Source: Desulfobulbaceae bacterium (GTDB lineage: Bacteria > Desulfobacterota > Desulfobulbia > Desulfobulbales > SURF-16). From it: DNA of 51,018 nt. The notes beneath the pieces were generated by a model that saw nothing but the letters and a program-made list of their open reading frames with translations, had not been told where the DNA came from and searched no databases. The stretch's first letter is position 1. Every line of letters starts with the position of its first letter. The position numbers were made by a program, and so were the translations under genes. This document shows, in pieces, positions 1,335 to 50,816 of this stretch. The stretch spans positions 1 through 51,018 of the forward strand of contig PKTX01000032.1 in NCBI GenBank assembly GCA_002868945.1, given 5' to 3'.

Positions 1335-1421
1335 AGTGGTAAATCAATCTCATATAGTTATGATCGGCCGACAGTGGCCGTGCACCTGCCTTTGCTATGC
1401 GGCACGGATTTTCAGAAGTGT

Positions 1422-4400
1422 TCAAAAAAGCTTGAGCTGAATGCCCTGCGGCCTTTTCTTTGTTGTTTTCCGGGGAGAAATCTCTTGTTTCGTAAAAAGA
1501 CCTTCGGGTATCTCTGCCAGAAAACGAGACGGCTGGCATTCATGGCCGTGCCTGTTCAGGCTTCTGCTTAAAAAAAGTTGTTCCTTGGCCCGGGTCATGG
1601 CCACATACAAGAGGCGCCGCTCCTCTTCAAGTTCGCTGGTGGCCGAGAGGTAGGGGCAGAGTCCCTCTTCAAGTCCGGCAATAAAGACCACCGGAAATTC
1701 CAACCCCTTGGCGCCATGCATGGTCATCAGGGACACCGCTTCGGCCCGGTCATCGTAGACCGTGGCCTCTGCATGCTTGAGCAGGTGATGGGCCACCGCA
1801 TCCATACCACCCAGGGCCCTGGCCAGGTTGATAAACCTGATGACCAGTTCGTGGTCAAGGTCAAGGCCGACAAAGTTGGCGACCTGGGCCAAGCCGTGGC
1901 TGGCATCCGTACCGGCGCCATTGCGGTAGAGCTCCAGCATTTCATGGAGGGCGGCAATCTTTTCCATGGCGGGTCGGGGGATCTCGATGTGGGCCAGTTC
2001 CTGCCAGATGTCATGGCTGGTAACCGGTAGCTTCTGTTCAAGAAGGTCCAGCGTGGTATGGCCGATACCGTTGAGGGCCCCGAACAGATGCAGGGAATCG
2101 GCCATGGTGGCCCGGCCGGTGGCCTCCAGAAGAAAATGGTAGAGAGGGCGAATTTCGGGCTGCAGGAAAAAGGGAGAGGCACCGCTCTGTTGAAAGGGGA
2201 TACCGCGCTCTTCAAGTTCGGCCGACAGGATGGCTGCCTGTCGGCCCATACGGAAGAGGATGGCGATATCCCGGAAGGTGAAGTTGCCGGCATTGATCTG
2301 ATCCACGGTCAGACTGTTGGTGCCGCCCACCAGGCGTTCTATGGTGCGGGCAATGAGTCGGCCCTCCTGTTGGCCATTCTTGCTGATCATCTGATGCAGG
2401 CTGCCGCCCTTCTTACGAGTGGCGCTGAGGTCGATTTCACTGCGCAGGCTGTTGTGGCGGATGAGGCTGCCGGCTGCCTTGAGAATCTCCGGACGATTGC
2501 GATAGTTGGTGGAGAGAGACAGGCTTCTGGCGTTTTTGCGCCGGTTGAACTGAAAAAAGAATTTCAGGTCACTGCCGCGAAAGCCGTAAATAGCCTGATC
2601 CGGATCGCCGATGGCAAAGACCTGGGCCGTGTCGGCCAGGGTGGTGACCAGCTCATACTGGGCCTGGTTAACATCCTGGAATTCATCCACCAGCAGGTAG
2701 TGTACGGCGTTGCTCACCATTTTTTTGAAATCAGGGTCGTGCAGGCAGACGAGAAAGGTGGGGATGATGCCGTCCAGGTCCACAGCCACCAAGGACTCGA
2801 GGTGGGCGAGGTAGCTCTGCACCTGCGGTGAGGGCGGCAATGCCTGCTGCCGGGTGGTGTGGGCATGGAAATGGTTGGTGATCTCCGCCCTGATCCGACT
2901 ACGCTCTTGGCGATTCAAGGTGGCAAAGAGCTGCTTGAGTACAAGCTCTCGGCTTTCGTTGCCGATGACGGTGAGCTCCGGTTGCGCCTGGCGCAGCCAG
3001 TGCAGACAGAAGGTATGGAAGGTGCCGCTGAAGATGGGCTGGACCGTTTCAGCCAGTTTGGCGGTTAGGCGTTCACGGATTTCCCGAGCAGCCTTGTTGG
3101 TAAAGGTGATGGCAAAGAGGTGCTCCGGTGCCAGACCCCCTGCCAGCAGGCGGGCCATGCGCTCCACCATGGTATAGGTCTTGCCGCTGCCTGGTCCGGC
3201 TGCGACAATAATCTGCGGGGCACGGCTGGCAATGGCCTCTTGCTGCTGGCTGTTGAGTTGCGGTGCTGCCGTTGCGGTAGTATTTGTGGCTGGTGCGCAA
3301 GGGGCAGGAGGGGTCGAGAGGGGCCGGCCGGCCGCTGGTTTTCGATTCTTGCGCCGCACCTTTTGGTCGGCAAAGAGGGATTGAGCACCACTGAGCTGCT
3401 TGATCTCCTGTTCTTCAAAGACATGGATGACACCGAACTGGCCGTCAAAACCGGCCTGTCTGATCACCTCCCCGGCCCGCATCCTTTTGATCGCCTCACC
3501 CAGCAGGCTGGAGTCGTGGCTGATCTCTTCAATGGGGATGTCACGCAACAGACTGAACTCAGAACCGAACTTGCCGATAAGGCGACTGTATTGGGTCAGC
3601 ACGGTTTTGCTGCCGGGGCCGACGCCAAGGATCTCGGCGAGGATCTCCGGCAGGGGGATGAGGCTTTCAAAGAGAGGGCTGTCCTCTGGCAAGAGGGGGC
3701 GGCTGCGGTCGGCCAGCTCCATGACCCGGTGGTTGACCCCCACGGTGAGGGGTTTACCACAGACCGGACAGATGTTGTCATGGCGGCGGGTGGTGATGGG
3801 GTCGAAACAGACACCACACTTACGATGGCCGTCATGGTGGTATTTGCCCTCCTCCGGATAAAATTCAATGGTGCCGGTAAAGCCGCGGCTCGGATCGGCC
3901 ATGGCCCGACGGATGGCGGCAAAAGAGAGTTCGCAGCTCAGCAGGTTGGCCTCCCGGCCCAACTTGGCCGGTGAGTGACAGTCGGAGTTTGAGATCAGGG
4001 TGAAGCGGTCCAGGGCCGAGATCAGCCGATTCATATCCGGATCAGAGGAGAGTCCGGTTTCCAGGGCAAAGATGTGGTCGCTGAGGTCACCAAAACACTC
4101 CTCAATGGAATCAAAACCGGACTTGGAGCCAAAGAGGGAGAACCAGGGGGTCCAGATATGGGCCGGTACCAGAAAACCATCAGGGATATCCTCCAGGACG
4201 ATTTCCAGCAGATCATGGGCATCAAGGCCGAGGATGGGGCGACCGTCCGACTGGATGTTGCCGATGGCGGCCAGACGGGCATTAAAGGCCCGGGCCGAGG
4301 CCAGGTCCGGACAGAAGATGATATTGTGGATCTTGCGCACCTTGCCGTGCCGTTTGTAGATGGAGCTGATCTCGGCGGTGAGCATGAAACGGACGTCAAG

Positions 4401-6842: not shown

Positions 6843-6965
6843 ATGGCCTCTTGGAATGAGTCGATTTCCGCCGGTTTGACAAAAAAAAGAGGCGGCAAGC
6901 CGGCGTCGTGCACGTGGTGGCGGCATCAGCGCCGCTTGGTTGGGTCGACCGGGGGCAGGGTCGTG

Positions 6966-8144
6966 TTAATCATCCTTGGTGGTATGACAGGTAAAGCACC
7001 CCGTATTGATGTCGCCGCTGTTGTGGGCGTTCATGCTGCTGTAGTCCCAGCGTAACATGTCGGGGTAGGGACTGGCATGGGCCATGTGGCAGGAGAGGCA
7101 GGTCACCACGTCTGTGCCTGGCGTAACGCTGCTGGACGGTGCGTCAGGTACTGTGGTGCGGCCTATGGGGGCTTCAACGCTGTAGGTTGTATAATGCTGA
7201 TACTCGTCACGATCCGGCAGCACCATGTCGGTGGGGTGACGAATAAAAGGTGAGACGATGTCTGTACCGACGCCATCGCTGTCACTGGTGGTCAGGGTGT
7301 GGAAGTTGCCGTGGCAGGTGGCGCAGAAGCCGCTGATTGTCTGGTTGGGAGGTGAGACCCCGTTGCTGCCGTGGCAGCTTGTTGTGCCGCAGCCCAGGGT
7401 CATGGGGGTGGTGGCGCCGTAATATTCGTTGTGGCTTTCCGCACTGATATTTTGCCATCTATCCAGCTGATTTTCGTACCCCTTGACGCCCACCAGAAAA
7501 CGGTAACTGTTTTCAACCGTGTCCGCCACGGTGAGCTTGCCCTCCACATTGTTGTGATGGGCTCCTGACATGGCGGCCACATCGGTGGGCGACCCCTCTG
7601 TATAACGGTAGCCGTGACAGCCATTCATGCCGGCGCAGGTCAGGTTTGAGGCGTTGACGATATAATCTTCATGGAATGATTGCTTGATGCCGCCGGGCAG
7701 GACATTGTCCAGGGTTTGTTCGATGAATTCTGTGCCAAGGTCAATGACATTGTGGCCATGGCTGTCGGCCGCAACTCCTTTCAGACCGGTGATATAGGCG
7801 AAGTTTCCTGCTGCCAGATCGCCGCTTGCGTCGGTATGCATAACCTGGGGGATGTGGCTGCCGTTATTTTCAAGAATCTTGGCAACGCCGGCCTGACCGT
7901 GGCAGCCCAGGCAGTCGCTGCGCAGCAGGTTGCGTTCCTGGGTGGCGCTGCTGTCAAACTGCATGGAGGCACCCTGCTGGCTGTTATGCATGGTATGGCA
8001 ATTGCTGCATAGTCCGGTAATTCTTGCCCAGGTCGAAGTGGCCGGTGTCAAAAGAAGGCAAATGATTGCGGCCTGGCTGAGCCGGATAAAGGCGCGGGCT
8101 GATTTTTTTTGCGGGTGGTGGATGTGTTTTTTGGGCACAGGCAT
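6966..8144 (-). CDS. Periplasmic seven-haem c-type cytochrome with atypical haem sites
   Basis: A 392-aa exported protein. The N-terminus is basic with a hydrophobic core ([10 protein letters not shown]) and a likely cleavage near residue 40. Haem-binding motifs: CSNCH (46-50), CLGCH (78-82), a CX5CH (170-177), a CX4CH (252-258), CATCH (274-278), CLSCH (349-353) and CFTCH (383-387). Several are followed by MAH or MH, which resembles the doubled-CXXCH cytochrome families. Such proteins carry electrons in the periplasm or to outer-membrane partners. The CX5CH is a very rare spacing and may or may not bind haem. The gene is monocistronic, facing the tadA terminator. No membrane anchor is seen after the signal peptide. 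Family assignment is broad. Confidence 0.88.
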
Positions 8145-8504
8145 AACCAGCTGGTTGAGGTAAGGGGTGGTTTTGGCTATTAATATTCTTTAAATATAGC
8201 ATATTTCGTGCCAAAACCTCAGGTAAAAGGCTGAAGCCGTTCTGGTGCTGCCCTGGTGCGACATTTTGTCATTTCTGACATGATGGAACGCCGGCTGAAA
8301 ACGACCAGGATCTGGTGAGTTGTTCTGTGCCGACGGCCAGTTTCTGGTGGGAGGAAAGGGGGGCGAATTTTTTATGTGAAAGTGTAGCATTCTGTCGCAC
8401 TGTGACTATTTGCCATATTCTCAAGCATGCTGATGGGTGCTAGGTTAATATTCGGCCAAGCAAGATGTACTGTTTTGTGACCATGGGGAGAGGGTTGCAT
8501 CTCT
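8145..8504. other. Leader and promoter region of the seven-haem cytochrome
   Basis: AT-rich sequence near 8180-8215 (upstream on the minus strand) probably holds the cytochrome promoter, but no clean -35/-10 pair could be fixed. I looked for a c-di-GMP-I (GEMM) riboswitch core and did not find it. Confidence 0.35.
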
Positions 8505-38915: not shown

Positions 38916-38950
38916 ACTTGTTGACAAGTTTGTTGGGTAAAACATAAAAT
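38916..38950 (+). promoter_or_regulatory. Promoter of the GTPase/roadblock operon with overlapping operator-like repeat
   Basis: TTGACA (38921-38926), 18-base spacer, TAAAAT (38945-38950): a near-consensus sigma-70 promoter. An inverted repeat ACTTGT-TG-ACAAGT (38916-38929) covers the -35 box and could bind a dimeric repressor. The first gene starts about 180 bases downstream. Confidence 0.7.
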
Positions 38951-39058
38951 GATATCTGGCGACTTTGCCAGTGATGTTGCCAGGTTTGCCGCGATATACC
39001 ATCCGTATGCGAAAGTGTTGTCGATATAGAGGGGCGCCGATTTTTCAGCAAGTTTATT

Positions 39059-39104
39059 CCCCTGGGCTCAGGGCCATTGCCGGATGGCCTGCGGGGCTCA
39101 GGGG
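39059..39104 (+). promoter_or_regulatory. Structured 5' leader of the GTPase/roadblock operon
   Basis: In the ~180-base leader, CCCCTG (39059-39064) pairs with CAGGGG (39099-39104) and GGCCAT (39072-39077) with ATGGCC (39084-39089), giving a stacked stem-loop about 30 bases before the ribosome site AGGGGGGAG. It matches no riboswitch I know. Confidence 0.5.
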
Positions 39105-39134
39105 TTTCATTAACATCTAGAGGGGGGAGTGTAC

Positions 39135-39530
39135 GTGCCTGATATGATTTTGACAGCAAAGTCTGTCGAGGATGTGAAATCAATAATTAATGAAAAGCTG
39201 ATCAGTGAAAACGTTCAGACGGTCATGGTTATTGATGGAGCGGGAAATATCTTGGCCCACTGCGGCCAGGATGCTGATGGTCTGGATGCTATTTCACTGG
39301 CGGCCTTGACTGCTGCCAACTTCGGCGCAACCTCACAGATTGCCAAGCTCATTGGTGAAAATGACTTCTCCCTTCTCTATCACAAGGGAGAGAAAGCGAA
39401 CATCCATTTTGCCCGCCTGGGGGGAGAGATGATTCTGGTAAGTATTTTCGGCGATGATGTTTCCTTGGGCCTGGTCCGCGTTCGTGTGGAAGAACTGGCC
39501 GATGATATCAATCAGATTTTTGAAGGATAA
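39135..39530 (+). CDS. Roadblock/LC7 (MglB-like) protein
   Basis: 131 aa from GTG 39135, six bases after AGGGGGGAG (a GTG at 39129 and an ATG at 39144 are alternatives). The protein is one roadblock/LC7 fold: helix SVEDVKSIINEKL, strand TVMVIDGAGNILAHCG, central helix DAISLAALTAANFGATSQIA, then GGEMILVSIF and a C-terminal helix. MglB proteins are the GTPase-activating partners of MglA and control cell polarity. It is directly followed (3-base gap) by an MglA-like gene, so a GTPase/GAP pair is likely. It is cytoplasmic. Confidence 0.88.
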   Translation: MPDMILTAKSVEDVKSIINEKLISENVQTVMVIDGAGNILAHCGQDADGLDAISLAALTAANFGATSQIAKLIGENDFSLLYHKGEKANIHFARLGGEMILVSIFGDDVSLGLVRVRVEELADDINQIFEG

Positions 39531-39533
39531 TAC

Positions 39534-40148
39534 ATGGCCTTAATTGATCTTGGCAAAAAAGAAGTGCACTGTAAGATTGTCTATTACGGTGCGGGAAGAT
39601 GCGGCAAGACCACCAATCTTCTCTATATCTATAATGCCATGAGTGATAATGATCGTGGCAAGATGCTGACCATTGACACCAAGGGTGACCGGACCCTCTT
39701 TTTTGATCTCCTGCCCCTCAACCTTGGGAAGATCAGTGGTTTCGATATCAGGATACAGCTGTATACCGTGCCTGGTCAGGTCATGTATGAGGCCACCAGG
39801 AAACTGGTTCTTAAAGGTGTTGACGGCCTGGTGTTTGTGGCGGATCCCCTCAAGGTGAGACAGGAACGCAATATTGAAAGTCTGGAAGACTTACGCCGTA
39901 ATCTTGCCGATCATGGTTTAAATCTCAAGGAAATGCCTCTTGTCCTGCAATATAATAAGCGCGACCTGTGCGAGACACCGGTGCCCACCCTGAGTGTTGA
40001 GGAGCTTGAGCAGGATCTTAATCAAGAGTACCAGGCCCCCGGTTTTGAAGCGATAGCCACCAAGGGGCCCGGTGTGTTTGAGACCTTGAAGGAGATCAGT
40101 AAGCGGACAGTGAATTATGTCGCCCAAAAGCATCTTTTCAACAAATAG
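39534..40148 (+). CDS. MglA-like small Ras-family GTPase
   Basis: 204 aa. P-loop GAGRCGKT (19-26), switch-I region KGDRTLFFD (50-58), TVPGQ (78-82, the MglA form of the G3 box), and NKRD (141-144) for guanine specificity. The GRCGKTTNLLYIY and TLFFDLLPL segments are typical of gliding/twitching protein MglA, which recruits pilus or gliding machinery to a pole in its GTP form. The ribosome site GAAGGA lies before the ATG. With the preceding roadblock protein it forms a switch. No frz or rom polarity genes are in view, so the output is probably the encoded PilB-like ATPase. Confidence 0.93.
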   Translation: MALIDLGKKEVHCKIVYYGAGRCGKTTNLLYIYNAMSDNDRGKMLTIDTKGDRTLFFDLLPLNLGKISGFDIRIQLYTVPGQVMYEATRKLVLKGVDGLVFVADPLKVRQERNIESLEDLRRNLADHGLNLKEMPLVLQYNKRDLCETPVPTLSVEELEQDLNQEYQAPGFEAIATKGPGVFETLKEISKRTVNYVAQKHLFNK

Positions 40149-40225
40149 GGGTGCCCGTCTTGGATGAGCTCCGGGATTTAGAAGAGTCTGAAGGGTGGAG
40201 CGATCTGCCTCGGCACAGGTAGAGG

Positions 40226-40293
40226 CCATCTTGGATAATTGCTGTTTCGGAGTCTCGCGAGACTCCGAGGGGGCCCGTTCTGGACAGGCGCAG
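40226..40293. repeat. Repeat family A remnant containing a perfect 20-bp palindrome
   Basis: CCATCTTGGATAATTGC is followed by CGGAGTCTCGCGAGACTCCG (40249-40268, perfect palindrome) and GTTCTGGACAGGCGCA, the reverse of the GTGCCTGTCCAGAA end. It interrupts the operon between the GTPase gene and the 540-aa gene. The palindrome could act as an internal terminator or processing site. Confidence 0.75.
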
Positions 40294-40488
40294 TAACTGT
40301 TCACAGGCTGAATGCCGGAAATGACTACAACCAGCCAATTCGTAAATCTTTGAGCAGTGTCACGGATTGCCGCATGCGGCTCGGCGAAGGGTGCAGCGAC
40401 CACGAGAGCCGAACCAATCACCGCAAGAGGGGACGTTGCTCGACGGTTACCAGGGATTTTCAGATCAGAATAGATAAGGAGTAGGCTG

Positions 40489-42111
40489 ATGGGAAGTGAC
40501 GACCTCAATCAGGGCGATTTTAATGCAAAGATTTCCGATGCCGTTGACGAGCTCTTTAATGCAGTACGGCAGATTGAAATAGATCCGAAAACCAACGAGG
40601 TCAAGGAGTTGGCCACCCCCTCGTCGCCAGCCTCGGCAACCGGCAAGGAGATACCTCCCCTTGAGATGGAGAGCGACGCCGATAATCAGGTCGAGTCGGC
40701 ACCAGCCCCCCAGTCTCCCGGTACCGACTCGGAAACCTTGTCGCGACTCGATCAGGCCTTGATGACCCTTGACTGGGAGGTCAGTCGTTCCAATGCCGGC
40801 AGTATGCGTGACCTGCTTGATAAGGCGACCCGGGAGTTTGATCTTGCTCCCCTGCAGGGAGAGGGTGGTCTTATCTCACTCATGCATGATCTGCTGGTGG
40901 CCATGAGTGAAAGACCTGAAGTCGTACCCACCTCCGGCCCCCTTGCCTTAAAGAGCAGTCTGGCCGCCATAAAGGCCGCGGCCCTGGAGGGGCAGCCTTA
41001 TGGTGATGAGACCTTGGAACTGGTGGAGCAGGGCCGTGCCGCCCTGCGCTCCGTACTCCCGGAGCAGGGCGAGGCCGCGGCTGCTCCGCAGCCCACTGTG
41101 GCCAGCAGCAGCGCGCCGCCTCTTCCGCACGAATTACAGGTCGCCCTGAAAAATCATATTAAGCGTCTGGATCAACTTCTCCAGAAGCGTGTTGTGCCGG
41201 TGGAGACTTTCTTTAGCAAGGCCCCCAGTCTGGCCAGGCTCCATGTGGTCATGAAGGCGGTGCGGCAACAACTGGCCGAGCAGATTGCCCAAATGAAAGG
41301 GGCCTTGGCCGGGGAATATGGCGATGTGATGCCTGTGGCCGATCCCGTTTCAATCAGCCTCAAGCTCGGTGATGAGTGTCAGAAACTCATGCAGTATCAC
41401 CTGCAGGTGCTTAATCAATGTGCCCGCCGCATTGCTCCCATTGAAAAATTGTTTGCCGACATGGAGGGGCAGCATAAGCTGCATGCCATTCATTTTGAGT
41501 TGCGCAGCGGCTTGATGACCCAGCTCCACTATGTGGCGGCCGCCTTAAACGGCGATTTCGGCCCACTGCCTCCTTTGCCGAAGCTCGACAAAACAGCCGA
41601 TTCCGAGGCAGGACAGGCAGCAGCGGCGCCACCTGCCGCCACGGCCGTTCCCCCTTGGTCAACCTTGAAGGTGGGACGCTGGCGAGGTGAACATATTGCC
41701 TTTATTCCGGAGCAGATCTGTTTTGAAGGGCCTGCCGGATTTGGTGCCGGCAATATCGCCCGGCAGGCCACCTTGAAACTGAATAAACTGAAACCCTGGC
41801 CCTGGTCCGGTCTGAAGTCGAAACTCCGCGGTGAGTTGGCGGACAAGGGCAAAAAAGAATTGGCCGGCCTGGAGCTGCCTGTTCTTGATCTGCCGGTGCC
41901 GTCCTCCGGTCGGGGCGGCAAACATGTCGTTGTCCTTTTTCAGGGGGGCAAGGGTGGAGTTGTCGTGATTGATAGCCCCCTTGATGATCTGGAACTCGGT
42001 GACCAGTATGAATGGGCGCCGGTCAGCGATGCTGAGGGTGATGTGATTTGCGGTCGGATCTTATCGGATTTTGGCGACCCCATTCCCGTGGTGGATGTCA
42101 CCCGGCTTTAG
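40489..42111 (+). CDS. 540-aa protein with possible CheW-like C-terminal region
   Basis: I do not recognise the full protein. The N-terminus (1-90) is acidic and Pro/Ser-rich. Residues 90-370 are helical, with two similar-looking helical blocks (LDQALMTLDWEVSRSNAG and LHVVMKAVRQQLAEQIAQM), and an Ala/Pro linker follows. The last ~150 residues are strand-rich and end in HVVVLFQGGKGGVVVIDSPL and GRILSDFGDPIPVVDVTRL, which resembles the closing strands of CheW-type adaptors (low confidence). AAGGAG precedes the ATG. The position between an MglA-like GTPase and a PilB-like ATPase suggests an adaptor or scaffold that couples them. Confidence 0.75.
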   Translation: MGSDDLNQGDFNAKISDAVDELFNAVRQIEIDPKTNEVKELATPSSPASATGKEIPPLEMESDADNQVESAPAPQSPGTDSETLSRLDQALMTLDWEVSRSNAGSMRDLLDKATREFDLAPLQGEGGLISLMHDLLVAMSERPEVVPTSGPLALKSSLAAIKAAALEGQPYGDETLELVEQGRAALRSVLPEQGEAAAAPQPTVASSSAPPLPHELQVALKNHIKRLDQLLQKRVVPVETFFSKAPSLARLHVVMKAVRQQLAEQIAQMKGALAGEYGDVMPVADPVSISLKLGDECQKLMQYHLQVLNQCARRIAPIEKLFADMEGQHKLHAIHFELRSGLMTQLHYVAAALNGDFGPLPPLPKLDKTADSEAGQAAAAPPAATAVPPWSTLKVGRWRGEHIAFIPEQICFEGPAGFGAGNIARQATLKLNKLKPWPWSGLKSKLRGELADKGKKELAGLELPVLDLPVPSSGRGGKHVVVLFQGGKGGVVVIDSPLDDLELGDQYEWAPVSDAEGDVICGRILSDFGDPIPVVDVTRL

Positions 42112-42177
42112 CAGCTCAGATCTCTCCTATCTGTGTTGCTCTAGAGGCACTTTTTCCTGTTTTTTAGCGTATCATTA

Positions 42178-44496
42178 ATGACGGACACAAAACAGTATTT
42201 CGAAGATCGCCTGGCAGAGGCTGACCTCTACAAGACCCATGGCCTTGACAGTGAAGCCTGCGCCATTTATGAGGAGCTGCTGGCCAAGCTTGACCCTGAC
42301 AAACACGCCAAGCTCTACAGCCATATCCAGGAACAGTTGGCCTCTGCCCGTGGTCCGGGCGAAGTTCACCAGCAGGAACTCGACTCGCCCAAGGGCGAAG
42401 ATGATCTGCATCGTCTGGAGAATTGCGATGGCCTTGTGGAGGCCGGTTTCCTTCAGGAGGCCATTGATGAGCTCCATAAGCTCTTTGATTCCTCCATTCA
42501 GCCGGGTCTCATCTGCTTCCGCATCGGTCAGTGCTATAACCGTCTTGAAAAGCCCTATGAGGCAGTGGAGTATTTTGAAAAGGCCCTGAGCGATGTCGGC
42601 CTGGAGGACAAGGATCGTCTCGATATCCTGGATCGTCTTGCCGTTGCCCAGGAACAAAACGGCAACATGAAGGATGCCATACGGGCCCTGGAGGCCATTT
42701 GCTCGCTTGACTCCACCTTTCGTGATGCCGATAAAAGACTTGAACATATTAAACAGAATGCCGCCAAGGCCGGTCGTTTTTTTCGCCTGCTCAGTGCCGG
42801 CTATCTCATTGACCAGGATCTTGAACAGGCCAGAAAGGCCGCCAAGCAGCAGGGTAAATCCCTCGAAAGCGTCCTTATTGAAAATTACAGTATCGACAAG
42901 AAGGACCTGGGCAAGTCCCTCAGTGAATACTACAACTGTCCTTTTGTGGAGTTTATCGAGGGCGGGATAGGACCGCAGCCCAGCTGTGTGAAGGGGATTA
43001 CCGAGAAGTTCTTCAGGTCAAACAGGTGTGTGCCGGTCTATGATGAGGATCACAACCTGCTGCTGGCCATTGATAATCCCACCGACAGTGTCCGGGCCGA
43101 TAATGTCCGGATGTCGCTCAATGTTCCTGATATTGAGCTTGCCGTTGCCCTCAAGGATGACATCGACAAGTTTATCGATGTCTACTACGGCATGGAGACC
43201 TCCTTTGACAGCGATGATGACGATGATGTCTTTGAGCAGCTGGAGCTTGTCGAGGAGAGCGAAGAGGAAGAGGTGGTCGAGGATACCGGCGCCGTGGCTG
43301 ACGGCGTCGTTGTCCAGATGGTCAATAAGACCATTGAAGATGCCTATGCCCGCGATGCCTCTGATATTCATATCGAGGCCCAGCCCGGTAAACGCGGTGT
43401 TCTTATCCGTTTTCGTATTGATGGTGAATGTGTTCACTATAAGACCGTGCCGGCCCAGTTCAAACGGCCACTGGTTGCCCGCATCAAGATCATTTCCAAG
43501 CTTGACATCTCGGAACGGCGCATGCCCCAGGACGGCAAGATCAAGTTCAAGACTCGGACCGGTAAAATCATCGAGCTCAGGGTGGCCACCCTGCCCACTG
43601 TGGGCGGTAATGAGGATGCCGTCTTGCGTCTGCTGGCGGCAAGCGGCGCCATGCCCCTTGAAAAGATGGGCCTTTTGGATCATGTCTATGAAAAGTTCAT
43701 GGAGATCCTTGCCATTCCCTATGGTCTGATTCTGGTGGTTGGCCCCACCGGATCCGGTAAGACCACCACCTTGCATGCCGCCATGGCCAAGATCAACACC
43801 CCCCAGAAAAAGGTGTGGACCGCCGAGGACCCGGTGGAGATCATCCAAAATGGTCTGCGGCAGGTGCAGGTGCAACCCAAGATCAATCTCGATTTTGCCA
43901 GGGTCCTGCGCGCCTTTCTGCGGGCCGATCCCGATGTGATCATGGTGGGTGAGACACGTGACGAGGAAACAGCGGAGATCGTTGTTGAGGCGGCATTAAC
44001 CGGCCACCTGGTTTTTTCCACCCTGCATACCAACTCAGCGCCGGAAACCGTTACCCGTCTGCTTGGTATGGGCATTGACCCTTTTAATTTTGCCGATTCC
44101 CTGCTTGGGGTTCTGGCCCAGCGTCTTGTCCGGCGCCTCTGCGTTCATTGCAAGGAGAAGTATCGCCCGGATCAGAAGGAAAAGGAGTTGATCATGTCCC
44201 TCTATGGCGATCATAAAGTCTATCCGCTCACCGAGAACGATCTTGATATCGATCTTTATCGCAATAAGGGATGTCCAAAATGTATGCATTCCGGTTATAA
44301 GGGCCGGATGGCCGTGCACGAGTTGCTGACCAACAGCGACGATTTGCAGCGCAAGATCGCCACCAATGCTCCGGTGGCGGATATCCGCACTGAGGCGATG
44401 AACAACGGTATGTTAACCTTGATGCAGGATGGCATCTGGAAGGTGCTGCAGGGCCACACCGATCTCATGCAGATCCGGGCAACCTGTGCCAAATAA
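42178..44496 (+). CDS. PilB/GspE-family ATPase with TPR-like and MshEN-like N-terminal regions
   Basis: 772 aa, longer than PilB (~560). Residues 1-190 are TPR-like (CDGLVEAGFLQEAIDELHKL, RIGQCYNRLEKPYEAVEYFEKAL). Residues 198-270 look like an MshEN/GspE-N domain (GRFFRLLSAGYLIDQDLEQA...) that in relatives can bind c-di-GMP. An acidic linker (340-370) precedes the motor: GPTGSGKTTT Walker A (522-531), DFARVLRAFLRADPDVIMVG with Asp/Glu boxes and Walker B, GHLVFSTLHTNSA His box, and a zinc tetracysteine (Cys655, 658, 699, 702). It would drive type IV pilus or type II secretion assembly. No pilC, pilM-Q or gsp genes are nearby, so it is an orphan motor under this operon's control. The ribosome site is weak. 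Confidence 0.92.
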   Translation: MTDTKQYFEDRLAEADLYKTHGLDSEACAIYEELLAKLDPDKHAKLYSHIQEQLASARGPGEVHQQELDSPKGEDDLHRLENCDGLVEAGFLQEAIDELHKLFDSSIQPGLICFRIGQCYNRLEKPYEAVEYFEKALSDVGLEDKDRLDILDRLAVAQEQNGNMKDAIRALEAICSLDSTFRDADKRLEHIKQNAAKAGRFFRLLSAGYLIDQDLEQARKAAKQQGKSLESVLIENYSIDKKDLGKSLSEYYNCPFVEFIEGGIGPQPSCVKGITEKFFRSNRCVPVYDEDHNLLLAIDNPTDSVRADNVRMSLNVPDIELAVALKDDIDKFIDVYYGMETSFDSDDDDDVFEQLELVEESEEEEVVEDTGAVADGVVVQMVNKTIEDAYARDASDIHIEAQPGKRGVLIRFRIDGECVHYKTVPAQFKRPLVARIKIISKLDISERRMPQDGKIKFKTRTGKIIELRVATLPTVGGNEDAVLRLLAASGAMPLEKMGLLDHVYEKFMEILAIPYGLILVVGPTGSGKTTTLHAAMAKINTPQKKVWTAEDPVEIIQNGLRQVQVQPKINLDFARVLRAFLRADPDVIMVGETRDEETAEIVVEAALTGHLVFSTLHTNSAPETVTRLLGMGIDPFNFADSLLGVLAQRLVRRLCVHCKEKYRPDQKEKELIMSLYGDHKVYPLTENDLDIDLYRNKGCPKCMHSGYKGRMAVHELLTNSDDLQRKIATNAPVADIRTEAMNNGMLTLMQDGIWKVLQGHTDLMQIRATCAK

Positions 44497-44559
44497 GATG
44501 GACGCGTAACAAACCGCTTTCTGTGAAAGAGTGACACCTTTACGCTTGCAAGGAATGGT

Positions 44560-45765
44560 ATGAAAAAAATATTGATAGTCGATGATGAGAGTAATTTTCT
44601 GTTGAGTCTGGAAGATGGTCTCAAAGAGTTCAGCGACTCTTTTTCCATTGCCACGGCTCATAACGGCAAAGAGGCGGCCGCCATAATCGACCGGGAACAG
44701 GTTAACCTGATCATCACGGATATCAAGATGCCGGAGATGGACGGTTTTGAGTTGCTTGCCCACCTGAGCACCGATCATGCCGATATTCCGGTGATTGTCA
44801 TGACGGCCTTCGGCTCCTCGGAGATAGAGGAGCGTCTCGACAGTATGGGGGCCTTTCAGTACATCGAAAAACCTATAGATTTTGATCTGCTCATTGAAAA
44901 GGTGAACGAAGGTCTTGCTGCTGCTGAAAAAGGCCACATCTCCGGTGTTTCGTTGACCTCCTTCATGCAGCTGCTCTCCCTGGACAACAAGACCGCCACC
45001 CTCAAGGTGATTTCCGGGGACCGGGTGGGCACCATTTTTTTCCTTGACGGGGAATTGATGAATGCCTTTACCGATACCCTGCAGGGCCAGGAGGCCGCCC
45101 TGGAAATTGCCTGCTGGGATTCTGTGGAGATAGAGATTCAACATCTCTGCCGCCAGCGCGAAAAAGTGATCAAGGCACCCTTGGGTTTCGTCCTCATAGA
45201 GTCGGCCCGCATGAAGGATGAACGGCAGGATCGAGCCTCCGGCGGTAGAGGTCTTGCCGCGGAAGAGGAGAAGAAGAAGAAAAAGACGCAAAAAAAAGAG
45301 GGGGAGCCGGCCGAGGGCGCGGCGCGTGAGATCGATCCTGCCACCTTGGCCCAACCGGCCGAGACAGCCGAGGGAGTGGCCCGCGAGGTTGATCCCGCCA
45401 GCCTGGTTTCCGAGCCGGAGAGACCAGTGCCTCCTGCCATAGCGCCCATGCTGGATGCCTTAACCTCCATGGATGAGGTGAGCTGTCTGGCTATTTTAGA
45501 TCGGCAGGGCGTCCTGCTTGCCGAACACAAAAAAGGGGGAGAGTTTGCCTCCTACGCCGCTATTTTGGTGGCGGAAACGGAAAAACTGAATGCCGATCTT
45601 GACCTTTCGCCTCCCCAGAGTCTGGTGGTCAATAAACGGACCGGAAGCAAGATCCTTATTATTCCCGGGCCGCATATTATTGTCGGTATCGAGTTGTCAA
45701 GCGACGCCTCAGCCGGTGCCATTGCCGGGAGCATGTGTCCCATGGTAAAACGAGTAGCCCTGTAG
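44560..45765 (+). CDS. Response regulator with DUF4388-like and roadblock-like regions
   Basis: 401 aa. Receiver domain 1-120: acidic pair DD (8-9), phospho-acceptor Asp54 in ITDIKMPEMDGF, MTAFGS Thr switch, EKPID Lys. Residues 125-215 resemble the DUF4388/PATAN domain (SLTSFMQLLSLDNKTATLKV, GTIFFLDGELMNAFTDTLQG, EAALEIACWDSVEIEIQ). A lysine-rich then Ala/Pro linker (225-285) follows. The last ~115 residues look like a roadblock fold (SCLAILDRQGVLLAEHKK, KILIIPGPHIIVGIELS). There is no DNA-binding output, so signalling is by protein contact. DUF4388 regulators partner with MglA-type GTPases and type IV pilus control in other bacteria. AAGGA precedes the ATG. Confidence 0.85.
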   Translation: MKKILIVDDESNFLLSLEDGLKEFSDSFSIATAHNGKEAAAIIDREQVNLIITDIKMPEMDGFELLAHLSTDHADIPVIVMTAFGSSEIEERLDSMGAFQYIEKPIDFDLLIEKVNEGLAAAEKGHISGVSLTSFMQLLSLDNKTATLKVISGDRVGTIFFLDGELMNAFTDTLQGQEAALEIACWDSVEIEIQHLCRQREKVIKAPLGFVLIESARMKDERQDRASGGRGLAAEEEKKKKKTQKKEGEPAEGAAREIDPATLAQPAETAEGVAREVDPASLVSEPERPVPPAIAPMLDALTSMDEVSCLAILDRQGVLLAEHKKGGEFASYAAILVAETEKLNADLDLSPPQSLVVNKRTGSKILIIPGPHIIVGIELSSDASAGAIAGSMCPMVKRVAL

Positions 45766-45846
45766 GGCAATGATTGGCGCCTGCGCCCCTTCCGTATATG
45801 GGTTGCTGTTTCGTGAAAAAAATCTGGGCTATCAGTGGGAAACTAA

Positions 45847-46560
45847 ATGAATGATTTATTAGAAGAGATCAAGATGCTCAAGGGTGTGCAAGGGGCATTT
45901 GTTTATACGGAAAAATTTGGTTTGGTGGCGTCTGACATGCCTGCTTCCGCCGGTTTTTCCCTTGCCGCCATGGAGAGACTGGGTGTTTTTGTCAAACGCT
46001 TTTTCAGCAACCCCACCACCATGGAACTCGGGGTCATGAGCTATGAGGTGAGAAATCCTGAGTCTTTGATATTGCTCAAAAAAATCGACAACCAGGCAAC
46101 CTTGATCACGGTGTGTGACACAACGGTGAGTATGCCCCTGGTCAATATGACCACCAGCATGCTCATTGCTGAGCTGAAGTCGGCTGTGGACCTTATTACC
46201 GAGAAGCCTGATGTCAGTAAACTGCAACCCCAGGCAAAACCGGCGCAAACCGCGGCGGCGCAGGCCAAGAAACCTGCCAGCCAAGTGCCTCCCAAGCCCC
46301 AGACAAAGGTGGTTGATGTTGATAAATTGCTGAAGGAGGGGCCCTTTGCCGCCATTGCCCGCAAGCTGGAAGACTCCATGGCCCGCGCCATCGGGCCGGT
46401 GGGCAGCATGGTTGTTCGGGATTGTGTGGAAAAGTGGGTGGCGACCGGCTCCCCGTCAAAGGATCGCTTCGGGGAACTGATGGCCCTGCTGCTTAAGGAA
46501 ATAGGCGACAGCCGTTTGGAGGAGGAGTTCAAGCAGGAGGTTGGCTCTCTGCTAAGCTAA
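45847..46560 (+). CDS. Roadblock-like protein with conserved C-terminal helical domain
   Basis: 237 aa. The N-terminal ~125 residues look like a roadblock fold (GVQGAFVYTEKFGLVASDMP, ESLILLKKIDNQATLITVC). A Pro/Ala/Gln/Lys linker (125-155) follows. Residues 158-237 form a compact helical domain with conserved-looking FAAIARKLEDSMARAIGPVG and a strand-helix VVRDCVEKW; similar tails occur in signalling proteins that sense membrane or polar partners, but I cannot name it firmly. It is the last gene of the operon, ending before repeat B and a terminator. It may be a second GAP or scaffold for the GTPase. Confidence 0.75.
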   Translation: MNDLLEEIKMLKGVQGAFVYTEKFGLVASDMPASAGFSLAAMERLGVFVKRFFSNPTTMELGVMSYEVRNPESLILLKKIDNQATLITVCDTTVSMPLVNMTTSMLIAELKSAVDLITEKPDVSKLQPQAKPAQTAAAQAKKPASQVPPKPQTKVVDVDKLLKEGPFAAIARKLEDSMARAIGPVGSMVVRDCVEKWVATGSPSKDRFGELMALLLKEIGDSRLEEEFKQEVGSLLS

Positions 46561-46899: not shown

Positions 46900-47610
46900 T
46901 TAATCGGCGCCGATCTCTTTATCGTCCAGGGAACCGGTAATGTCTGAATGGCCGGCCTTGTCAAAGACAAATTTCTGCAAGGTCTCGGGCTGCAGAGGCG
47001 TGGCCACAAGTGGTTGCATGGTTGCCGGTTTGTGCATAATGAAGGCCTGGGTCGGTTCATAGGGCACAGGTGGCAGCTCCGGGCCTTTGTTCTTTTGTGG
47101 AACAGTCAGTGGCGCTGCAGCCGGTTTTTCGGGTGCAAGGGGATTGACAAAGCCGGCTATGCTCTCATCACTGTCACCCATCTTTTTGGCGGCCAGTCTG
47201 GCCTCCTGCAGGGAGTTCATGGCCCGTTGGTTTTCCGGTTCAAGGGAGAGACCGGTTTCATAGGCCTTGATGGCATCTTTCGGTCTGTCCAGCTGCAGGT
47301 ACATGTCACCCATGCCAAAGTAACTCTTGGAGAATTTGGGCGCCAGCTTTGCCGCTGCCTGGTAGTGCTTAAGGGCTATCTTGTATTTGCGAAAACGCTC
47401 CATGGAGTAGGCGTATTCGAAGTTGATGACCGGGTCATTGGGGCAATCGCTTATCCCCTGGCTGGCAAGTTCCTTGCGTTGCAGGATATCGTTTTGCTCC
47501 TCAATGTTTTTGCGGATGGCCAGACAGTCTGCCGACCAGGCAAGATTGGCGCTTGCCAGGAGCATGAGGAGGGTGGAGATCAGCGGAAGTGTGAAGGGTC
47601 TCGTTTTCAT
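46900..47610 (-). CDS. Exported TPR-repeat protein
   Basis: 236 aa. Signal peptide MKTRPFTLPLISTLLMLLASANLAWS, cleavage near 26; no lipobox. Mature residues 55-145 contain about two and a half TPR motifs (FEYAYSMERFRKYKIALKHY, SKSYFGMGDMYLQLDRPKDA, AYETGLSLEPENQRAM). The rest is a Pro/Ala-rich tail. It probably scaffolds a periplasmic complex. It starts one base after the stop of the haem-sensor gene upstream, so the two are surely co-transcribed. Function is unknown. Confidence 0.82.
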   Translation of the reverse strand: MKTRPFTLPLISTLLMLLASANLAWSADCLAIRKNIEEQNDILQRKELASQGISDCPNDPVINFEYAYSMERFRKYKIALKHYQAAAKLAPKFSKSYFGMGDMYLQLDRPKDAIKAYETGLSLEPENQRAMNSLQEARLAAKKMGDSDESIAGFVNPLAPEKPAAAPLTVPQKNKGPELPPVPYEPTQAFIMHKPATMQPLVATPLQPETLQKFVFDKAGHSDITGSLDDKEIGAD

Positions 47611-47611
47611 T

Positions 47612-48484
47612 TTAGCGCCTGCTCAGCATGCGGCCCACACTGATGCGAAGTCTGTCGATGGCCCGGGACAGGGAGCCGATTTCATCGTTTGAGGCGACAA
47701 CCACCGGTTGCTCAAGTCCCTTTCCGAGGCTGATTTCCTCGGTTCTGTTGTTGAGTCTGATGAGAGGCCGCACCACACCACGCTCCAGAAAAATACTGAT
47801 AATAAAGAGAGCAAAGATGAGGCAGCCGGCCCCGATGGCCAGGAGAAACAAGGCATTCTGTTTGGCCTGGGCAATGGCCTCGGAAATGGGGATATAGACC
47901 ACCAGGCTCGCCACAGTATCGTTGAGCTGCCAGTTATAACCGCTTTCCGTGCCGTAGATAACCACCTGGTCCTTGGGAGCAACAGCGGGATCGGAGTGGC
48001 ACTGAAGGCAGTCGGGGTGATCGACCTTGAGGGGGATGGCCCGATAAAAGAAGTTGATGCCGTTTTTGCTGATGGTGCCGCTGGTTTCCTTGAGCTGTTT
48101 ATCCTGTCGAAACTGTTTGAGGATGGTGTCCTCAAAGTCATCGGCCCGGTTGGTCTCCTTCAGGGGATTGTCAGCCGCGTATTTGATCATAAAGCCGGGC
48201 ATCTTCTGGTTAAAATAATCAAAGGTGGTACTGGTGGCGGCAAAGCCTGACATGAGGTTGGGATAAAAGCGATCTTTCTCGATGAGTTCGGAGATCAGGG
48301 GGGTCTGGTTCTTCCTGAAGAAGTGGCGCTGGGCCTGCAGGTAGTTGAAGATGATTTCGCCCTTGCTGGCCGCCGACTGCATAGCGGCTCGCGTGCTGAA
48401 TTTGTAGCTTGCCCAGCCCAACGCCACAAGGGCCAGCAGGCTGAGGAGTCCCATGATGATTATAAAACGTGTTCGTATACCCAA
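47612..48484 (-). CDS. Membrane haem sensor: Tll0287-like (DUF3365) domain plus HAMP
   Basis: 290 aa. TM1 is about 7-25 (FIIIMGLLSLLALVALGWAS). A periplasmic Tll0287-like region with NPLKETNRADDFEDTILKQF and one c-haem site CLQCHSDPAVAPK (near 157-161) follows. TM2 is near 215-238. A cytoplasmic HAMP segment (PLIRLNNRTEEISLGKGLEQ...NDEIGSLSRAIDRLR) then ends the protein: no kinase or methyl-accepting domain. The start is TTG at 48484 with AAGGAG eight bases upstream. Redox or ligand sensing by the haem is expected. The adjacent soluble kinase is the obvious output partner. Confidence 0.85.
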   Translation of the reverse strand: MGIRTRFIIIMGLLSLLALVALGWASYKFSTRAAMQSAASKGEIIFNYLQAQRHFFRKNQTPLISELIEKDRFYPNLMSGFAATSTTFDYFNQKMPGFMIKYAADNPLKETNRADDFEDTILKQFRQDKQLKETSGTISKNGINFFYRAIPLKVDHPDCLQCHSDPAVAPKDQVVIYGTESGYNWQLNDTVASLVVYIPISEAIAQAKQNALFLLAIGAGCLIFALFIISIFLERGVVRPLIRLNNRTEEISLGKGLEQPVVVASNDEIGSLSRAIDRLRISVGRMLSRR

Positions 48485-48603: not shown

Positions 48604-49683
48604 TTAGTCCTGTGACAGTCGGAACTCCTCCACTTCATGGGCCCGTGCCTTGGGAATGGAGATGGTGACCGTGGTCCCTTCTCCCTCGGTACTGGAAAGG
48701 TCGATGGAGCAGTTCATCTGTGCCAGCATTTTTTTGGAAAGGGCCAGACCGAGACCTGTACCCTTCTCCTTGGTGGTGTAAAACGGTTTGAAGACGTCAT
48801 GCAGCGAGGCGGCCGGGATGCCGCAGCCGTTATCGGTTATCTCCAGCAGGATGCTGGGGCCGTGGGAACGCGAGGAGATTAACAGGCGCGATTCCTTGTT
48901 GTTCTGCATGGCATCCATGGCATTGGCCAGCACGTTCATGGTCACCTGCTGGAGGGCGCGGCGGTCCACCTTGACCATTTCAGAGCCCGGCTCAATGTCG
49001 ACGCTGATTCCGATCAGGGTATCCTTGACGCTGGAGTAAGCCGTAATAAGCTGGGTATTGTGCATGATAAAATCGGAGAGGTCCATCACCGCGGTCTGCG
49101 GTTTTTCATACATGTTGAAGTTTTTAAATGACTTCAGGAGATGTTCGATTCTGGCAATCTCTTCAAAGACGCGGACAAAATAGACCTCGATTTCATCGGG
49201 TGAATAGCGATCGATGTTTTTCTGCAGAACCGTGAGGGCCATTTTGATGGAGTTGAGCGGGTTGCCGATTTCATGGCGGATGCCGGTGAAGATATAACCG
49301 ACATTGTTCATGGTCACCACGGCTTCGGCAATGGAGTCCATCCTCTTCTGGTCGGTGATATCCTGGAGAAGTATGGAGATGAACCTTTTGTCTTTTCCCG
49401 GCATATCAAAGGTATAGCCGATAAATCGTTCGCCATGTTTTTTGATGGTCTTGACCTTGTGCCGCTTCGGGTCATTGAGCAGCTCCTGGACAGACGACTC
49501 GACAATGGGATAGAGGGAGCCGAATTCAGGGGAAAGCTTGATGACCTCAAAGATTTCAGCCGCCTGTTGGTTGCAGTAGGAGACCGCATGTTTTTGCATG
49601 TCAAGCACGACAATGCCCAGGTGGATTTTTTGAAAGATTTCCTGGAAGATGAGCTCGTTACATTCTTGGGAGGGAGTAGCCAT
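48604..49683 (-). CDS. Soluble PAS sensor histidine kinase
   Basis: 359 aa. PAS-like N-terminus (about 15-115: IHLGIVVLDMQKHAVSYCNQ), phospho-accepting His137 in GIRHEIGNPLNSIK, and a HATPase domain with NVLANAMDAM (N box), ITDNGCGIP (G1) and KGTGLGLALSKKM (G2). No transmembrane segment, so it must be activated by cytoplasmic contact or PAS ligand. The ATG at 49683 is chosen; the TTG further upstream adds non-conserved residues. It is 119 bases upstream of the haem-HAMP sensor gene on the same strand. No response regulator is adjacent; the receiver at 44.6 kb is a candidate. Confidence 0.92.
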   Translation of the reverse strand: MATPSQECNELIFQEIFQKIHLGIVVLDMQKHAVSYCNQQAAEIFEVIKLSPEFGSLYPIVESSVQELLNDPKRHKVKTIKKHGERFIGYTFDMPGKDKRFISILLQDITDQKRMDSIAEAVVTMNNVGYIFTGIRHEIGNPLNSIKMALTVLQKNIDRYSPDEIEVYFVRVFEEIARIEHLLKSFKNFNMYEKPQTAVMDLSDFIMHNTQLITAYSSVKDTLIGISVDIEPGSEMVKVDRRALQQVTMNVLANAMDAMQNNKESRLLISSRSHGPSILLEITDNGCGIPAASLHDVFKPFYTTKEKGTGLGLALSKKMLAQMNCSIDLSSTEGEGTTVTISIPKARAHEVEEFRLSQD

Positions 49684-49771
49684 GGGTGTGTGTTCGTGGT
49701 GTCTGAAGGAGGAGCTGCGCAAGCATAATGATGAGTTGGCATCTTATCTTACCTGCTCAACTCTCTAACGT

Positions 49772-49990: not shown

Positions 49991-50321
49991 TAAGCGAGCC
50001 TGCGCAACTGCGACACAACCTGTTTCTGGAGAGAGACGAGATGGCTACCAGGTGACAGGCGTAAATCTTGTTGCGTTAATGTGTAGAGCATTATAATGCT
50101 TAGGGAAGAAAAATGCGTTTATTTTTATTAACCGTCTGTTTTCTTAGTTGTTTTTATTATGGGTTGTCGGAGATGGGGCTTGGCAGGTGCCCTGCGTCGC
50201 AACCATAGCGCTGGCTGGGACCGGGACTGGGCGCGAATCAAAGGTTTCGTCGTCCAGGTTTGGTTTATTGCCAGGACGCCAGTCGGTAAGAGGATGGCTA
50301 TCATGGGAGATGATACGGTAT
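49991..50321. other. Leader of the PilZ gene
   Basis: About 330 bases. The open frame from 50148 is not coding-like. The ribosome site GGGAG at about 50304 precedes the ATG at 50322 with a long gap, and an in-frame ATG at 50310 is also present. Confidence 0.35.
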
Positions 50322-50816
50322 ATGTCGAAAAGAGTGCGAGTAAACAGTGACAATCTGGCGGCAATCAAGTGCCCACATTGTCAAAGCATGAAGCTGATTT
50401 CCGTGCATAAGTTCAAAGGGGTCAAACATTCTCTCAAGGTGAAATGCACCTGCAATAACAGTTTTCCGGTTGCCCTTGACTTTCGTGAGAGATATCGGAA
50501 GTCGACCAATATTGACGCGCACTATGTCAAGATGGACGGCCACCTGCCAAAAAACGGAACCCCGGTGGAACCCCACTTGAAATGCAAGGTGGCTGATTTG
50601 TCCCTGCAGGGACTGGCCCTGTCCATTGCCGGCGCCCATAACCTGCAGGTCGGTGACGATCTTATGGTGGAATTCACCCTCGACGACAAGGCCAATACCC
50701 ATATCAAGCGTAAGGCCAATGTTCGCGTTATCGGCCAGGGCTTTGTCGGCTGTCAGTTTGACGAGACAGATGCGCCTGCTTATGATAAGGCTCTTGGTTT
50801 TTATCTAATGCCGTAG
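50322..50816 (+). CDS. PilZ domain protein with N-terminal CXXC ribbon
   Basis: 164 aa. Residues 15-46 contain CPHC and CTC, suggesting a small zinc-ribbon. From about residue 55 the PilZ c-di-GMP motifs appear: RERYRK (RxxxR-type) and, 30 residues later, DLSLQGLAL ((D/N)xSxxG), followed by the beta-barrel strands (LMVEFTLDDK, KANVRVIGQGFVGCQF). Such proteins change partner binding on c-di-GMP. The HD-GYP enzyme at 23.9 kb and the MshEN-like ATPase could share this signal. The start at 50322 (or 50310) is uncertain. Confidence 0.88.
   Translation: MSKRVRVNSDNLAAIKCPHCQSMKLISVHKFKGVKHSLKVKCTCNNSFPVALDFRERYRKSTNIDAHYVKMDGHLPKNGTPVEPHLKCKVADLSLQGLALSIAGAHNLQVGDDLMVEFTLDDKANTHIKRKANVRVIGQGFVGCQFDETDAPAYDKALGFYLMP

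Follow-up and report, generated by a model that had tools for sequence, protein, structure and literature searches.

The 51,018-nt contig PKTX01000032.1 of Desulfobulbaceae bacterium (GCA_002868945.1), hereafter called the window, carries six ORFs on a single strand (genes A to F) that somewhat probably represent an MglA/MglB switch cassette coupled to a dedicated motor ATPase, with gene D coding for an alternative extension ATPase of a type IVa pilus. Support for this cautiously preferred reading comes from the A-D and A-F gene order, the MglA signature, the intact motifs of D, mutually exclusive PATAN-bearing inputs, the fusion of E with F, retention of the TPR arm when the effector is swapped, precedents in other bacteria, and the presence of PilM, PilC, and PilT genes in the genome. 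Counting against it are a D score below the PilB cut-off, a canonical PilB on contig C83, a kinase-like output in one clade, the near-universal presence of PilM (57/58 genomes), and a CheW assignment made on predicted structure alone. MglA/MglB control of type IV pili provides the known frame, and the apparently new element is an operon containing its own pilus-type motor ATPase.

Operon organization

All six co-directional genes of the original prediction were found in the ORF listing, separated from A to F in turn by gaps of 3, 340, 66, 63, and 81 bp, with gene A starting from a GTG at 39135 where its homologues begin too. The promoter-like site was likewise borne out as a predicted sigma-70-type operon promoter at 38921..38950 (+; TTGACA-18-TAAAAT, scoring 11/12), of which the -35 box and the T-tract upstream of it were identical across four genus members. 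The structured leader claimed for the same region found no support, as it folded no better than shuffles (z -0.88, with 37/200 shuffles folding equally well) and its sequence was poorly conserved in the genus comparison. A single promoter for switch, regulators, adaptor, and motor would probably make the operon a ready-made unit directing when or where a surface-filament motor is used. The B-C gap (40149-40488), which contained a weak promoter-like site, was 340 bp long; two close relatives have gaps of about 110 bp.

The MglB-MglA pair and the 540-aa adaptor

Gene A (39135..39530, +) codes for an MglB-type roadblock protein, carrying a roadblock/LC7 domain (Pfam Robl_LC7, E 1e-12) and having MglB as its best solved relatives (E 4e-32). 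Gene B (39534..40148, +) codes for an MglA-family small GTPase, in agreement with the MglA-like GTPase that had been proposed; its small GTPase profile gave MglA as best match (E 1e-70 to MglA structures), and its conserved motifs (R53, TVPGQ82, and NKRD) were those of Group 1 type MglA, including G1 GxGxxGKT[TS], TVPGQ lacking the DxxG Asp, Arg53, and NKxD.

Gene C (40489..42111, +) had been described as an unknown 540-aa adaptor, and no Pfam or NCBIfam family matched it, but its product is not featureless: its predicted model (AF2 pLDDT 82) was CheA/CheW-like. The model included a helical bundle resembling CheA P1/Hpt but lacking any conserved His (residues 76-196; 40714..41076, +; VIA Z 11.6 to CheA P1 1i5n for residues 72-196), two helical hairpin repeats identified by a repeat HMM (residues 212-356; 41122..41556, +) that occurred one to three times in most homologues, and a CheW/CheA-P5-like domain identified by Foldseek and VIA (residues 387-540; 41647..42108, +). 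Foldseek ranks 1-10 were all CheW or CheA P5 (prob 0.99-1.00, E 3e-3 to 3e-2) and VIA-align superposed residues 387-540 on CheA P5 (Z 10.5, with 8.6-10.5 for the CheW/CheA-P5 fold), such that the whole C-terminal domain adopted the CheW/CheA-P5 fold on the predicted model. The P1-like and P5-like domains followed the order found in CheA; the modeled P1/Hpt match is only suggestive of CheA P1 because the region is a helical bundle, and generic bundles were the sole matches of the middle helical region. A link to CheW by sequence failed, with no match to Pfam PF01584 in C or 14 homologues and an hhalign probability of 6% against the CheW profile, and CheA membership was not supported, as C had no HATPase domain and no conserved His in its P1-like part. 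Based on the fold likeness, the lack of a kinase domain and His, and the lack of profile support, C was named a predicted kinase-less CheA-like adaptor and was not counted as a CheW or CheA member. The gene nearly always adjoins mglBA, and in a phylum-wide search mglA lay alongside 32 of the 35 C-like loci examined, tying the C family to mglBA.

The motor ATPase and pilus genes elsewhere in the genome

Gene D (42178..44496, +) matched Pfam T2SSE (E 2e-117), MshEN (6e-13), and TPR, confirming the proposed PilB/GspE ATPase with TPR and MshEN-like extensions. Its N-terminal TPR arm (42196..42747, +), which is common to a kinase-like variant D', is followed by an MshEN-like N1 domain (42787..43200, +; Pfam MshEN) and by an ATPase core (43300..44475, +) containing Walker A/B, Asp box, His box, and two CxxC. 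Walker A, Walker B, the Asp box, and the paired CxxC were present in 55/55 orthologues and the His box in 50/55, placing D among the T2SSE/PilB-GspE-like ATPases. D scored 521 against the PilB equivalog TIGR02538 (cut-off 675.65) and its MshEN domain 20.7 against the NCBIfam c-di-GMP motif model (cut-off 38), while the ATPase on C83 exceeded the PilB cut-off with 753 and is a canonical PilB. As D fell below this cut-off and a canonical PilB is present, D is probably dispensable for basic piliation. A D homologue in Thermodesulfatator autotrophicus (L132, 11946-14293) was divided into two ORFs (477 + 293 aa) by a frameshift, sequencing error, or decay, and a 260-aa protein in L151 (16220-17002, -) matched D solely in its MshEN and junction region (profile positions 195-418).

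Searches for T2SSE, T2SSF, and PilM on the contig, which is the whole window, found no other pilus gene near the operon, consistent with the claim that no further pilus or secretion gene lies near. That a motor ATPase sits inside the switch operon also held, but its orphan status was not special because the pilus genes of this genome are all scattered: PilM on C64, a solitary PilC on C25, PilT-type ATPases on C3 and C66, and PilB on C83. This dispersal, together with the ATPases that other systems already possess, argues that D is an extra motor and that orphan status is usual here. D might instead power another machine, either the secretin-linked system on C57 or the type II systems on C42 and C11, given that the genome codes for several platform proteins and D has no adjacent platform; this is quite unlikely, as on C42, C57, and C11 alike an ATPase gene already adjoins the platform gene. 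Co-occurrence was uninformative on a tie between D and type IVa pili, since PilM was found in 57 of 58 relatives regardless of the presence of the operon. The solitary PilC (L071; G000:C25:84000-100000, 6964-8331) was located between short ORFs, one of them receiver-only, and lipid A genes, with no ATPase neighbors, which lends no support to its belonging to a D-specific cluster. Two further orphan PilB-like ATPases were observed, one of 892 aa beside a ParA-like gene (L070; G000:C64, 3184-5862) and the other of 615 aa and TfpB-like (L069, 7824-9671).

Receiver, roadblock, and sensor inputs

Gene E (44560..45765, +) codes for a receiver, a PATAN (DUF4388) domain, and a roadblock-like tail, in line with the receiver plus DUF4388-like region that had been proposed. 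Its acidic pair D8/D9, phospho-acceptor D54, T82, and K104 were invariant in every alignment row, as in phosphorylatable receivers. The tail resembled A (hhalign E 7e-5, probability 63%) and with moderate confidence is a roadblock module by sequence comparison. Gene F (45847..46560, +; AF2 pLDDT 83) has a predicted roadblock fold at residues 1-119 (AlphaFold with Foldseek E 4e-6; VIA Z 15-16 to roadblock/MglB) and a helical C-terminal domain at residues 158-236; no Pfam or NCBIfam family matched it and linking it to the MglB roadblock by sequence failed, leaving the assignment to the predicted fold. The three roadblock modules of the original prediction were thus recovered, A by Pfam, F from its modeled fold, and the E tail at moderate strength. 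In two loci (L140 and L142) all of F was fused to the PATAN portion of E, an argument for joint action of the two proteins. L140 also had a PilZ gene between D and the E/F fusion, and a PilZ-domain protein was located at 50148-50816 of the window, 3.6 kb downstream; together these hint at a c-di-GMP input.

Convergent to the operon, a trio of conserved neighbors recurred in the E/F clade: a TPR protein (46900..47610, -; Pfam and homologues, with an apparent signal peptide by eye), a Tll0287-type (CxxCH) haem-type sensor with HAMP (47612..48484, -; Pfam E 2e-30), and a PAS histidine kinase (48604..49722, -; HisKA/HATPase) that is a candidate kinase for E. The operon is therefore not self-contained as first supposed, with this sensor/kinase trio conserved directly downstream or, in other lineages, a full chemosensory cluster directly upstream.

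Relation to known systems and proposed mechanism

SgmX of Myxococcus xanthus, a TPR protein and binding partner of MglA-GTP, localizes PilB to the pole (PMC7519303, PMC11580455), although how MglA-GTP and the TPR effector recruit PilB has been stated to be unknown (PMC11580455). The MglA/MglB/RomR/SgmX/PilB pathway shares with the operon an MglA, an MglB roadblock, a receiver input, a TPR effector, and a PilB output (PMC7519303, PMC11580455), whereas here the TPR arm and ATPase form one polypeptide, all parts are in one operon, and a PATAN receiver and a CheA-like adaptor replace RomR/RomX. In Synechocystis, PilB is a direct binding target of PATAN response regulators (PMC10519157, PMC7690835), and PixE, PixG, and PilG, whose target is an extension ATPase, resemble E as PATAN-receiver proteins (PMC10519157, PMC7690835); in contrast, E has a roadblock tail and a receiver-then-PATAN order, and its operon includes an MglA switch. 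PATAN genes close to MglA were already noted in the neighborhoods of Wuichet and Sogaard-Andersen (PMC4316618), where the passages found mention neither a motor ATPase nor a CheW-like adaptor or exchangeable effector. The Streptomyces conservons (CvnA-D) are likewise operons of kinase, MglB, and MglA (PMC4316618) but without a receiver or ATPase and with an MglA of another group. A literature search that covered only a minority of subscription papers returned no account of the operon or name for the set, in keeping with the earlier statement that no named system with this composition was known; the parts are of known kinds and their combination seems undescribed.

By analogy with SgmX and the PATAN regulators, GTPase gating of the ATPase is plausible. 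The haem-type sensor and histidine kinase would set the phosphorylation of E, and A, the tail of E, and F, as roadblock proteins, would decide between GTP and GDP on MglA. MglA-GTP would then bind the TPR arm of D, as with SgmX in Myxococcus, while C might tie up the complex and, in other lineages, also connect it to a chemosensory array, and the PATAN domain of E could contact the D ATPase as in Synechocystis. As outcome, D would be localized or licensed as an alternative extension ATPase at a type IVa pilus base, with the PilM, PilC, and PilT genes located elsewhere. The fusion of TPR arm and ATPase beside the GTPase turns the missing link between MglA and PilB into one testable protein.

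Conservation and proposed exchange of inputs and outputs

The A-B-C-D order recurred across Thermodesulfobacteriota. Among 58 related genomes, C was found in 18, at loci with A-B-C-D in order and E and F present where the contig extends, and a GTPase-alignment scan across named genomes identified 80 loci with A-B-C adjacent in nearly all. The distribution was patchy, with the operon in three sampled genera only within the window's own family. In the synteny search, the same gene order was recovered from dozens of genomes, well beyond one strain, indicating that the gene set is more than chance.

The inputs (E/F or a Che cluster) were mutually exclusive and both contained PATAN. Gene E was present in 24 named loci, none with a Che cluster, and CheA and/or CheB-PATAN were upstream in 19, none with E/F, in a tally where some contigs stop too early for judging both flanks. 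The Che cluster of L087 included CheA, CheY, CheB-PATAN, two further CheB-like proteins, HDOD, and an MCP. E/F carriers formed one clade of the MglA tree (100/94) and the kinase-like variant another (96/93), with the Che-linked loci as a grade. Since many lineages have A-D without E/F, A-D could be the true unit, with E, F, and the sensor trio a two-component system that came to lie next to it by chance or through co-regulation; this is very unlikely, as E/F and the trio stay together throughout one clade, both E and F contain roadblock domains, and PATAN is also found in the alternative Che cluster.

Outputs varied as well. In loci L145-L152 the position of D was occupied by D', in which a protein-kinase-like domain replaces the ATPase half and the same TPR arm is kept (D profile positions 7-224 matching the D' N-terminus). 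One D' group lacked the catalytic-loop Asp and the other DFG; kinase activity was therefore not assigned, and the label is "kinase-like" only. Given a kinase-like output in one clade, a motor is not an obligatory target of the switch, and D itself may be a signaling ATPase and not a filament motor, its ATP state reporting to the switch and controlling something else such as polysaccharide output, a role like that of M. xanthus PilB in EPS. This alternative is unlikely, although a TPR kinase-like protein at the homologous position shows that effectors are not necessarily motors, the genome has a canonical PilB, and PilB has been reported as a signaling protein (PMC5544727); against it, the motor motifs including the CxxC pairs were kept in 55 orthologues and the Synechocystis PATAN regulators act on the motor.

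A broader generalization, about as likely as not, is that MglB-MglA and the kinase-less CheA-like adaptor constitute a portable Ras-switch cassette. Evolution would have exchanged its inputs, either a chemosensory array or a haem sensor/kinase together with receiver-PATAN, as well as its outputs, a motor ATPase or a kinase-like domain borne on the TPR arm, and in the window's clade it would drive a dedicated second extension ATPase. If true, sensor and effector swaps around a constant MglB-MglA-adaptor core would make bacterial Ras-like switches interchangeable modules, and the CheA-like adaptor would connect such modules to chemosensory signaling. A second, divergent mglB-mglA-C-like set was observed in the window's own genome (L193; G000:C25:34500-40500, 1420-4309); its C-like protein (608 aa) had matches in the P1-like region only, and no ATPase gene adjoined the set.
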